In this document: piece after piece, positions 12,001 to 29,389 of the stretch
Layout: each line of letters starts with the position of its first letter
How positions within the stretch are numbered: the first letter of the stretch is position 1
Assembly: GCA_947176615.1 (NCBI GenBank)
Contig: CAMWRO010000002.1
Coordinates: 1 to 33,193, forward strand
From: an uncultured Porphyromonadaceae bacterium
GTDB lineage: Bacteria; Bacteroidota; Bacteroidia; Bacteroidales; Muribaculaceae
Reading direction: 5' to 3'
DNA: 33,193 nucleotides
Notes under the pieces: model-generated
What the model saw: only the letters and a program-made list of their open reading frames with translations
Told to the model about the DNA's origin: nothing
Databases searched by the model: none
Position numbers and translations under genes: made by a program

Positions 12001-13290
12001 ATGAACCGTAAGATACTCGCGCTTGCTGTCCCGTCGATTATAACCAATATCACAACTCCGCTGCTCGGCCTCATGGATGTCGCCATTGTGGGTCACATGG
12101 GGAGTGCCGTATATATTGCCGCCATAGCGGTCGGGGGTACGATGTTCAACATGCTCTACTGGCTGTTTGGATTCCTGCGCATGGGGTCAAGCGGCATGAC
12201 GGCTCAAGCCTATGGCGCCGGAGACACGCATAATATTGCGGTGGTGCTCTACCGTGCGCTCCTTGTGGCCGCATGTGTCGGTGTGATGCTTGTTCTGGTG
12301 CATTATCCTGTCGGGGTATTCGCCTTGAGATTCATGGATGCCGATATGGAGACACAAGGGTTTGCCATGAGGTATTTTTCCATTCTTGTGTGGGGCGCGC
12401 CTGCTGTCTTGGGGACTTATGCGCTCTCGGGGTGGTTTCTCGGAATGCAGAATGCCAAAGCGTCGATGTGGATGTCGATACTCATAAATGTCAGCAACAT
12501 TGCCGTCAGTCTTATCCTTGTCCTCGGTTTCAGGTTGAAAATCGAGGGTGTCGCATTCGGCACATTGACGGCTCAATGGATAGGGTTTGTCTATGGACTC
12601 TGCGTGGTGGCTAAGAAATATGCGGTGCCTGTGCCCGCATTCGGAGACCTTGTTGACCGTGCCGGTCTTAAACGGTTTTTCTCGGTCAATATCGACATAT
12701 TTCTGCGCACATTGTGTCTTGTCGCGGTAACGATGTGGTTTACCCGCGTCGGGGCGACTCAAGGCACGCTTATTCTTGCGGTAAACACGCTTTTGATGCA
12801 GTTTTTCATGCTGTTTTCCTACTTTATGGATGGGTTTGGTTTTGCGGGGGAGGCTCTTGTCGGTCGCTATGTGGGGGCAAGAGATACCAAGATGGCTAAA
12901 CGGAGCATCAGCATGCTCATGAAGTGGGGTGCCGTTCTCGCAGTCATCTTTTCGTTATTATATTTTACCGTAGGAGCGGAATTTTTGGAGATACTCAGCA
13001 GCGATAGAACGGTTACCGATGCGGCCCGCGATTATTTTTATTGGGTGGTTGCCCTTCCGCTGTTGAGCTTTTCGGCGTTCTCGTGGGATGGCATATACAT
13101 AGGCGCCACCGATACCCGTGCAATGCTTGTTTCGATAGCTGTCGCGACTACGGTATATTTTGCGGCCTATTGTTTTCTGTTTCCGCTGTTGGGCAATCAC
13201 GGATTGTGGATTGCCTTTCTCGCTTATCTCTCGGTCAGAGGGGTTGCGCTGTCTCTGATGCGTCGTCGCATTTATCGACTTTGCCGTTGA
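12001..13290 (+). CDS. MATE family efflux transporter (DinF-like)
   Basis: MNRKILALAVPSIITNITTPLLGLMDVAIVGHMG...RMGSSGMTAQAYGAGD, typical MATE N-terminus. Confidence 0.92.
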   Translation: MNRKILALAVPSIITNITTPLLGLMDVAIVGHMGSAVYIAAIAVGGTMFNMLYWLFGFLRMGSSGMTAQAYGAGDTHNIAVVLYRALLVAACVGVMLVLVHYPVGVFALRFMDADMETQGFAMRYFSILVWGAPAVLGTYALSGWFLGMQNAKASMWMSILINVSNIAVSLILVLGFRLKIEGVAFGTLTAQWIGFVYGLCVVAKKYAVPVPAFGDLVDRAGLKRFFSVNIDIFLRTLCLVAVTMWFTRVGATQGTLILAVNTLLMQFFMLFSYFMDGFGFAGEALVGRYVGARDTKMAKRSISMLMKWGAVLAVIFSLLYFTVGAEFLEILSSDRTVTDAARDYFYWVVALPLLSFSAFSWDGIYIGATDTRAMLVSIAVATTVYFAAYCFLFPLLGNHGLWIAFLAYLSVRGVALSLMRRRIYRLCR

Positions 13291-13726
13291 CAAGGTGTAT
13301 TATACGCTGGTTGGACGAGCCTCGAAACCGCAGGGATGTATCGCGTTTCTCAATCATGAACGGGCCGTCGACCAACGCATCAATCACATTTAAAATAGGG
13401 GATAGACGTGGTGACGACTGAATCTGCTCAAGTGTGTAGCCGGTATAGCACCACACGGTGTAACCGCGTTCTTTGATATGCGATGCGAGCTCTATCATGT
13501 CGTCAATCTGAAAAAGCGGGTCGCCTCCTGTCAGTGTCACGTTGAATCCGTTTTCCTCGACCACATCGAGTATCTGTTCTATTGACATTACGGTGCCACC
13601 CTCAGCATCCCAAGACTGAGGGTTGTGGCAGCCGGGGCAATGATGCGAACACCCGGCAAAGTATATTGAAGTGCGTAATCCCGGGCCGTCAACTGACGTT
13701 CCCGGGATTATATCGATTACATTCAT
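13235..13726 (-). CDS. nrdG: Anaerobic ribonucleoside-triphosphate reductase activating protein
   Basis: Radical SAM motif CSHHCPGCHNPQSWD and GSSNQRII. Start set at MNVIDIIPGTSVDGPGLR (13726). The 3' end overlaps the convergent MATE gene by 56 bp. Confidence 0.93.
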   Translation of the reverse strand: MNVIDIIPGTSVDGPGLRTSIYFAGCSHHCPGCHNPQSWDAEGGTVMSIEQILDVVEENGFNVTLTGGDPLFQIDDMIELASHIKERGYTVWCYTGYTLEQIQSSPRLSPILNVIDALVDGPFMIEKRDTSLRFRGSSNQRIIHLVNGKVDKCDDASETAQPL

Positions 13727-13737
13727 TGGGGTATGGC

Positions 13738-15945
13738 TTATTTGTGTACCACGCGGTCGTGAAGTTCTGACAGTTTTGCCTTGTTCCATCGGTCGGTAGT
13801 GCCTACAAGGTATCCGGTGATGCGCTGGAGGCAGTCGATGTTGTGGCTGTGGCATTTCGGGCATTCTTCAAGGGATTCCGACGCGTCTTCATATCCGCAA
13901 TCCATGCAGCGGTTGCGGTTGTGGTTGACCGAGCAATAACCGATGTTGTATTTGTCCATCAGGTCAACGACATCGCTGATTGCTTCAGGGTTGTGGGTTG
14001 CGTCACCGTCGATTTCGACATAGAATATGTGACCTCCTCGGGTCAGGTCGTGATATGGAGCCTCGATTTTTGCCTTGTGTCGCGGTGAACATTTGTAGTA
14101 AACCGGCACATGATTGGAATTGGTGTAATAAATCTTGTCGGTGACACCGGGAATTTCGCCGAATGAGCGGCGGTCGCGCGCTGTGAATTTGCCCGAGAGA
14201 CCTTCGGCCGGCGTGGCAAGTACCGAGAAGTTGTGGCTATACCGCTCAGAGAACTCATTGGCGCGGGAACGCATGTGGGAAACAATTCTTAACCCGAGAG
14301 CCTGAGACTCGTTGCTTTCGCCGTGATGTTTGCCGGTCAGGGCGACAAGGCATTCGGCAAGGCCGATGAATCCAATGCCGAGTGTGCCCTGATTGATTAC
14401 GCTCTCGATTGTGCTGTCGGGATTGAGCGAGTCGGCGCCGTTCCACAGTCGCGACATGAGCAATGGGAACTGCTTGGACAGGGCTGTCTTCTGGAAATCA
14501 TATCGGTCGCAAAGCTGTCGTGCGGTAATTTCCATGATTTCATCGAGCCGGCTGAAGAAACGGGCAATGCGTTCATCCATGTCGACAATGTTCATGCACT
14601 CGATAGCGATGCGCACGATATTGATGGTCGAGAAACTTATATTGCCTCGTCCGATGGATGTTTTTTCTCCATAACGGTTTTCGAAGACACGAGTGCGGCA
14701 TCCCATTGTCGCGACCTCATAGTTGTAGCGCAGCGGGTCGTCGGCACGCCATTTCTCATGCTGGTTGAAAGTTGCATCAAGGTTTACAAAGTTGGGGAAG
14801 AACCGTCGGGCAGTCACCTTGCAGGCGAGTTTGTAGAGGTCGTAGTTGCGGTCGGCGGGGAGATAGCTCACACCGCGTTTCTTTTTCCAGATCTGAATGG
14901 GGAAGATGGCGGTAGCTCCGTTGCCAACACCTTCGTAGGTGGAATTGAGTAACTCGCGGATAATGCAGCGACCTTCGGCCGATGTGTCAGTGCCGTAATT
15001 GATGGAACTGAACACGACTTGGTTGCCTCCACGGGAATGGATGGTGTTCATGTTGTGGATGAACGCCTCCATTGATTGGTGGACGCGGCTGACGGTGCGG
15101 TTTATCGCGTGCTGAATCCATCGGTTGTCTCCTTCAAGTCCGTCAAGGTCCCTCTTGATGAAATCGTCGATTGACACATTATATAAATGAGAGAGGTCGG
15201 TGCCGTTCAGGCTTTCGAGATTCTTGATTTCTTCAATATAAGAGTATCTGACATAGGGCGCAAGGTAAAAATCAAATGCCGGAATGGCCTGACCGCCGTG
15301 CATCTCGTTCTGTGCTGTTTCAAGGGAGATGCATCCGATTATGGATGCCGTCTCGATGCGTTTGGCCGGGCGTGATTCTCCATGTCCGGCAATAAAACCG
15401 TATTTTAATATGCGGTCAAGAGGGTGCTGTACACATGTCAGGCTCTTGGTCGGATAATAATCCTTGTCGTGGATGTGGAGATACCCGTTTCTGACGGCAT
15501 CACGGGCCTCGGGTGAAAGAAGGTAGTCATCGACAAACGGCTTGGTGGTCTCCGAAGCGAATTTCATCATCATTCCGGCGGGAGAATCGGTGTTCATGTT
15601 GGCATTCTCGCGGGTAATGTCATTGTTCTTGGCCTCGATGATTTCAAGGAACATGTCGCGGGTTTTAGCCCGACGGGCGATGTTGCGCTGGTCGCGGTAG
15701 GCGATGTAGCGTTTTGCCACCTCTTTGCGCGGTGACTTCATCAACTCCACTTCGACCCGGTCCTGAATTTCTTCTACAGTCATGCGATCGTCGCCGCTCA
15801 TGCCTACGCGGTCTGCAATACGCATGATAAGGGCTTCGTCTTCGCCCATTTCGGTTGTCAACATCGCTTTGCGGATTGCCGCCTTGATTTTTTCTTCGTT
15901 GTAACCCACGACGCGTCCGTCACGCTTTATTACTGTCTGTATCAT
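13738..15945 (-). CDS. nrdD: Anaerobic ribonucleoside-triphosphate reductase
   Basis: N-terminal ATP-cone (VIKRDGRVVGYNEEKIKAAIRKA) and C-terminal CMDCGYEDASESLEECPKCHSHNIDCLQRITGYLVG. Confidence 0.96.
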   Translation of the reverse strand: MIQTVIKRDGRVVGYNEEKIKAAIRKAMLTTEMGEDEALIMRIADRVGMSGDDRMTVEEIQDRVEVELMKSPRKEVAKRYIAYRDQRNIARRAKTRDMFLEIIEAKNNDITRENANMNTDSPAGMMMKFASETTKPFVDDYLLSPEARDAVRNGYLHIHDKDYYPTKSLTCVQHPLDRILKYGFIAGHGESRPAKRIETASIIGCISLETAQNEMHGGQAIPAFDFYLAPYVRYSYIEEIKNLESLNGTDLSHLYNVSIDDFIKRDLDGLEGDNRWIQHAINRTVSRVHQSMEAFIHNMNTIHSRGGNQVVFSSINYGTDTSAEGRCIIRELLNSTYEGVGNGATAIFPIQIWKKKRGVSYLPADRNYDLYKLACKVTARRFFPNFVNLDATFNQHEKWRADDPLRYNYEVATMGCRTRVFENRYGEKTSIGRGNISFSTINIVRIAIECMNIVDMDERIARFFSRLDEIMEITARQLCDRYDFQKTALSKQFPLLMSRLWNGADSLNPDSTIESVINQGTLGIGFIGLAECLVALTGKHHGESNESQALGLRIVSHMRSRANEFSERYSHNFSVLATPAEGLSGKFTARDRRSFGEIPGVTDKIYYTNSNHVPVYYKCSPRHKAKIEAPYHDLTRGGHIFYVEIDGDATHNPEAISDVVDLMDKYNIGYCSVNHNRNRCMDCGYEDASESLEECPKCHSHNIDCLQRITGYLVGTTDRWNKAKLSELHDRVVHK

Positions 15946-16025: not shown

Positions 16026-16057
16026 CAAAGATACGATGTCTTATCCGCTTTTGCAAA
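16026..16057 (-). promoter_or_regulatory. Predicted nrdD promoter (TTTG-N20-TATCTTTG)
   Basis: Minus-strand TATCTTTG at 16026-16033 and TTTG at 16054-16057, spacer exactly 20. Confidence 0.7.
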
Positions 16058-16070
16058 CTTTTGCGGATAA
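16041..16070. promoter_or_regulatory. Candidate operator dyad TTATCCGC-N14-GCGGATAA over the nrdD -33 element
   Basis: Perfect 8-bp arms at 16041-16048 and 16063-16070; dyad centre coincides with the centre of the -33 TTTG. Confidence 0.6.
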
Positions 16071-16357
16071 ATGTGTGAAATGAATTTTTGTTTTGGAAAA
16101 CTTTTTGTGATTTTGAAAAATGTAGTGTGTTTATATATAGCGAGTTAGCGTTTTGAAATGGAAAACTTTGTGGCAGTTGCGTTGTTTTGAGTTGCTGATT
16201 GTGTGTTTTTCTTGATGACGCGTGAAATACTCTATCCTGTTAAAATCCACTGTGTTCTGTGTCTTGGAATCACTTGAAACGAGGCCGATTCTTAGTGGAA
16301 TTATGTCGAGTGGAATGGTTGTAAATGATTTTTAACGTTGATGCGAAAAGGGGAGTG

Positions 16358-29352: not shown

Positions 29353-29389
29353 AAAGTCACTTTGTCTTGAAAGAGATTATATAGTGTAT

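Follow-up and report, generated by a model that had tools for sequence, protein, structure and literature searches.

A conserved two-box element upstream of class II and class III ribonucleotide reductase genes in Bacteroidales

The window that we analysed, a stretch of 33,193 nucleotides from an uncultured Porphyromonadaceae bacterium, carries on its minus strand nrdD (13738..15945; 735 aa; NCBIfam NF005497, 984.9 bits), which encodes a class III anaerobic ribonucleoside triphosphate reductase with an N-terminal ATP-cone (a PF03477 match), and nrdG, which encodes the activating enzyme (13235..13726, minus strand; TIGR02491, 145.8 bits). The nrdG start was inferred at MNVIDIIPG, the TIGR02491 match beginning at residue 49 of a longer open reading frame, and the gene is reported as overlapping the end of nrdD. 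Upstream of nrdD, we read from the sequence a minus-strand promoter with a -7 box, TATCTTTG, at 16026..16033 and a -33 box, TTTG, at 16054..16057; the gap between the two is exactly 20 nt (TTTG-N20-TATCTTTG), as a preliminary description of this region had stated. The same description had pointed to a dyad, TTATCCGC-N14-GCGGATAA, at 16041..16070 as a possible site of a repressor that occludes the promoter. We observed that TTATCCGCTTTTGCAAACTTTTGCGGATAA at this place is indeed a dyad whose 8-bp arms match perfectly across a 14-bp spacer, and that its centre, 16055.5, falls on the -33 box as described. The promoter core, TTTG-N19-21-TAnnTTTG, is found again upstream of nrdD in relatives. The dyad is not conserved, and lies outside the conserved element that we describe here.

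The nrdD upstream regions have in common the sequence AAAGTT(T/G/A)TCCAAAA, with an A/T-rich end, which is usually present in two direct copies. In the window, the proximal box P, AAAGTTTTCCAAAA (16091..16104, minus strand), starts 71 nt before the -7 box and 47 nt before the -33 box, and the distal box D, AAAGTTTTCCATTT (16156..16169, minus strand), is a weaker copy 65 bp from P. In the genome assembly that contains the window, P is the sole exact copy of the 14-mer AAAGTTDTCCAAAA, and the CCATTT-ended variant seen in D is also found in relatives such as L049, L105 and L158. The whole composite element extends over 16081..16193 (minus strand), where it is matched by our sequence-only profile R1 with 54.5 bits and an E value of 2.6e-14; the window is itself one of the 58 elements from which R1 was built. 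Allowing up to three mismatches per box, we observed a box pair with a start-to-start spacing of 63-66 bp in 60 of the 75 nrdD loci whose upstream sequence was long enough (64 bp in 34, 65 bp in 19, 66 bp in 6 and 63 bp in 1). In a sequence logo, the GTT and the C of the core show little or no variation in either copy. With six helical turns between them, the direct repeats D and P lie on the same face of the DNA.

Among 59 nrdD promoters, 45 have a distance of 69-73 bp from the start of the proximal box to the -7 box; among 25 nrdJ promoters, 19 have one of 67-69 bp, and in the genes of a second class III family, TIGR02827, it is 69 and 71. The few alternative distances, one turn nearer or further (47-51, 58-61, 85 and 94-97 nt), show a helical phasing that is suggestive only. 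This distance holds despite the opposite orientation of the boxes at nrdD and nrdJ: they run with the gene at nrdD of this family, and against it at nearly all nrdJ and at the TIGR02827 genes, and these reversed boxes are not explained by a simple one-face activator model. The reading of the element as a structured RNA or riboswitch was ruled out, as no Rfam match was obtained for the element at E ≤1 and RNAalifold predicted no pairs on the 58 element sequences.

Between the boxes, relatives of the window have a well conserved palindrome, TAA-N4-YTGATWATCAR-N4-TTA; the corresponding position in the window (16123..16147, minus strand) holds a degenerate version, TAACTCGCTATATATAAACACACTA, with 12 of the 17 specified bases. 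The palindrome is centred 5-6.5 bp off the D-P midpoint in 32 of 33 nrdJ elements and 54 of 59 nrdD elements, and each of its halves fits the IHF consensus WATCAANNNNTTR. An IHF-like match, i.e. agreement at 7 or more of the 9 positions of this consensus, is present at the spacer centre in 57% of the nrdD elements and 61% of the combined nrdJ and TIGR02827 set, against about 10% of shuffled sequences. Proteins of the HU/IHF family are encoded in the window's own genome, with four PF00216 matches.

Searching 295 Bacteroidales genomes with a strict pattern for the box pair, we obtained eight matches, against one for the reversed control; each of the eight precedes an RNR gene, which is nrdJ in six cases, nrdD in one and a TIGR02827 gene in one. 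Profile R1 was run on 247 Bacteroidales genomes. Its best 46 matches (E ≤4.6e-5), which span 18 families of the order, all lie next to an RNR gene start: 32 nrdJ, 12 nrdD and two TIGR02827-type nrdD. At least seven of these 46 belong to the training set, and the rest, mostly nrdJ, are not known to. Weaker R1 matches away from RNR genes fall mostly within coding sequence. In the window's own genome, the element at nrdD is accompanied by a weak copy at nrdJ (L160, E 0.004), and outside Bacteroidales a 248-genome sample of the phylum gave four weak matches; two of these adjoin nrdJ genes of other orders within the class. A search for a single box, the 20-mer AAAGTTTTCCAAAACGAAAA with up to two mismatches, found it in 90 of 137 Muribaculaceae genomes, mostly once; 86 of the 90 loci examined carry an RNR gene, namely nrdD in 67 and nrdJ in 19, where the nrdD share is not independent of the way the motif was derived, and the nrdJ share and the absence of the box elsewhere are independent of it. 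From these observations, we conclude that the element is associated with RNR genes and is common to class II (nrdJ) and class III (nrdD) genes in at least 18 Bacteroidales families. In the window, the gene putatively under its control is nrdD.

The four single-box loci without an RNR gene comprise two truncated by a contig end beside a tandem copy, one chance match inside a gene and a fourth locus, L278. The latter (G213:C11, 1506-1525) is a tandem-box-like site upstream of a SAVED/HNH gene of the CBASS-effector-like, defence type, which stands beside a BrxA gene. A search of 60 kb of this contig revealed no RNR gene. The pattern also had three matches in viral contigs: two fall within a tandem repeat that is coding sequence, and the third precedes a TIGR02827 reductase gene. 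Few Bacteroidales genomes (5 of 198) have a class I RNR, and the element was found at none of the five class I loci checked. The protein encoded at L091, L095 and L113 was considered as a class I NrdA, a possibility ruled out by its assignment to TIGR02827 (NCBIfam); therefore no class I gene bears the element in these data. A cobalamin riboswitch (RF00174) lies directly upstream of six nrdD genes (L045, L070, L073, L074, L075 and L079), which are without a clear tandem element, L074 having a weak box match just upstream of the riboswitch; most nrdD genes with this riboswitch have no element. We also observed that some leaders of element-bearing nrdD genes, e.g. L108 and L145, resemble cobalamin riboswitches by sequence.

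RNRs supply all DNA precursors, and a dedicated repressor, NrdR, is described as controlling their genes in most bacteria. We found no NrdR (zinc ribbon plus ATP-cone, TIGR00244) in the window's own genome, which is 86% complete, and none above the cut-off in any of 247 Bacteroidales genomes, in a search that detected NrdR in 9 of 14 reference genomes. Ten weak matches all fall within open frames of 738-832 aa, which is consistent with these being the ATP-cones of RNRs. The only ATP-cone protein in the window's own genome and in same-genus genomes is NrdD, and an ATP-cone regulator is thereby ruled out in this genus. At L176 (G398:C6), a 286-aa protein that is not an RNR, and that is the sole ATP-cone match in its genome, starts with an ATP-cone followed by an apparent nuclease-type domain.

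The binding sites of known regulators were also sought. The NrdR box, consensus ACACWATATATWGTGT, has one chance-level match in the window at up to three mismatches, at 29372, far from nrdD. For the FNR/CRP-type site TTGAT-N4-ATCAA, we counted 21 matches at up to two mismatches against 20.7 expected, none of them on the element or the dyad, and the Rex site, a TTGTTAAW-N2-TTAACAA-like palindrome, has no match in the window at up to three mismatches. NrdR, FNR and Rex sites were rejected accordingly, in agreement with the preliminary description, which had held the site at the nrdD promoter to be of none of the NrdR, FNR/CRP or Rex types. A survey of the neighbourhoods of element loci revealed no recurrent transcription factor gene, the recurrent neighbours being only dnaA, a nitroreductase-like gene and RNR genes; likewise, no regulator gene that would point to autoregulation was seen among the weaker R1 matches examined or at the non-RNR single-box loci. 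The open-access literature yielded no description of the motif, of NrdR in Bacteroidetes or of Bacteroides nrdD promoters.

We hypothesize that the composite of about 110 bp, distal box, palindrome and proximal box, is an apparently undescribed RNR-dedicated transcription control site that is bound by a putative regulator and bent between the boxes, a reading to which we assign a probability of roughly 0.7. A single putative DNA-binding protein would occupy D and P on the same face of the DNA, and an HU/IHF-family protein would bend the middle so that the two boxes can touch; the assembly would act on RNA polymerase from upstream, and may, like NrdR in other bacteria, match the supply of dNTPs to demand. 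Judged from box position alone, activation is somewhat more likely than repression, the other option being a looping repressor; because no box overlaps the promoter, an activator is more likely than a repressor that occludes it. It is also probable, if less firmly so, that the Bacteroidales, in which no NrdR was found, use an unrelated RNR-specific regulator on a bent 110-bp element, i.e. that the NrdR system has been replaced across the lineage. The failure to find NrdR in 247 genomes of a dominant gut lineage raises the question of how its RNR genes are coordinated, and a sharply defined, conserved element common to class II and class III genes offers a direct handle, both as bait for the regulator and as a target for reporter mutagenesis.

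We considered DnaA as the protein that binds the boxes, because the box core resembles DnaA boxes and because DnaA controls nrdAB in E. coli. D and P (TT-TTCCAAA) would then be DnaA sites with an IHF-like bender between them, as at E. coli datA, and RNR transcription would follow the replication clock. Similarity to TTATCCACA is seen in the box core, and one of the weak boxes of E. coli oriC is TTATCCAAA; some promoters have, 19-23 nt beyond the proximal box start, a DnaA-like TGTTGAWAA sequence, and in 8 nrdJ loci dnaA adjoins nrdJ. The recognition helix of Bacteroidales DnaA reads KKDHATVLHAC, where E. coli has RDHTT at the corresponding place, so the Bacteroidales DnaA box may differ. However, conservation covers 14 bp (AAAG...AAAA), beyond a 9-mer; the single copy of the exact box in the window's own genome is hard to square with an oriC cluster; and in G616 there is no cluster of boxes at the GC-skew minimum and none before dnaA. 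We therefore regard the DnaA reading as unlikely. In addition, we noted that the dyad arm TTATCCGCA is one mismatch from the DnaA 9-mer TTATNCACA, which is chance level for the window, and that the order's own box may differ. At L092, L093, L099 and L185 (the start of G616), dnaA adjoins nrdJ; in L092 and L093, the element separates the two genes. On the complete Bacteroidales chromosome G616, the GC-skew minimum, which is the predicted oriC (G616:C1, about 2297452), lies about 12 kb from the nrdD element and more than 1 Mb from dnaA.

A second alternative is that the dyad at 16041..16070 is a true operator, whose repressor occludes the -33 box, perhaps acquired recently in this lineage in addition to the conserved element. 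Its 8-bp arms are perfect, contain four G/C each and are centred on the -33 box. When the 466-bp intergenic region was shuffled with dinucleotides preserved, an 8-bp inverted repeat of any composition with a spacer of up to 20 appeared in 12% of the shuffled regions, and one with at least four G/C in each arm in none of 300, this filter having been chosen post hoc; the dyad is for these reasons mildly unusual, not compelling. It is single-copy in the 2.83-Mb assembly of the window. The exact pattern of arm, spacer and arm recurs in just three other genomes among 397 of the family, where the spacers are unrelated, and the 26 same-genus genomes all lack it. Nor was a dyad with TTATCCGC arms seen in 80 nrdD loci taken from GTDB genomes, whose upstream regions we read and in which the promoter core recurs. 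The same is true of the eight same-genus nrdD upstream regions that we read directly: the dyad is present in none, the promoter core is kept, and seven of the eight retain the two-box element. Relatives that keep the promoter core without the dyad are what the preliminary description itself had named as refuting its proposal, and we reject the dyad in that role. Three same-genus nrdD loci (L172, L174 and L175) have an unrelated inverted repeat, AATAATYCAAC-N6-GTTGGATTATT, near the -33 region, imperfect in L174 and L175; this placement, similar to that of the dyad, speaks for the operator reading, and dyads near the -33 region may come and go between species. On balance, we consider it quite improbable that the dyad is a true operator; under the two-box reading, it is a lineage-specific or chance feature. 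Promoter occlusion is not the indicated mechanism either, since the conserved boxes lie 20-130 bp further upstream and are clear of the -33 box. What stands of the earlier proposal that the nrdD promoter may carry a regulator site not yet described is that an apparently undescribed conserved element exists; that element is not the dyad.

The notion that the element is a mere UP-element or curved A-tract region, which would strengthen the promoter at a basal level with no dedicated regulator involved, suits its A/T-richness, its A-tracts in rough helical phase and its fixed distance upstream of the promoter, but is very unlikely: the GTT-TCC core, which is near-invariant, is no A-tract, and the boxes occur almost solely at RNR genes and are not found at other strong promoters.

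The element can be compared with several known systems. Like the cobalamin riboswitch RF00174, it would be an upstream control of nrdD in Bacteroidales; the riboswitch, however, is a transcribed, B12-sensing leader RNA, whereas the element is upstream DNA without RNA structure. It resembles class I (CRP-type) upstream activator sites in that the box centre lies about 60-75 bp upstream of the -7 box, but it consists of two boxes 65 bp apart plus a palindrome, and the box is unlike a CRP/FNR site. In the DnaA-IHF complexes of E. coli datA, asymmetric TT-T-CCAAA-like boxes flank a bend site with an IHF consensus. The element likewise has asymmetric TT-T-CCAAA-like boxes on either side of an IHF-consensus site, although the boxes differ in length and composition, stand at RNR genes and are not seen at a predicted oriC. 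NrdR boxes are 16-bp palindromes, usually 15-16 bp apart (three or four turns), that lie on the promoter; they are paired at integral helical turns, with a spacing preserved by helix phase, and within a single genome they precede RNR genes belonging to two or more classes (PMC12051234, PMC9110341). The boxes of the element, in contrast, are asymmetric 14-mers in direct repeat, six turns apart and upstream of the promoter. Since box sequence, spacing and position differ and NrdR is lacking, membership of the element in the NrdR system is, on the sequence evidence, excluded. Both kinds of box are nevertheless paired, helically phased and found at RNR genes of at least two classes, and the parallel between them is a functional one.
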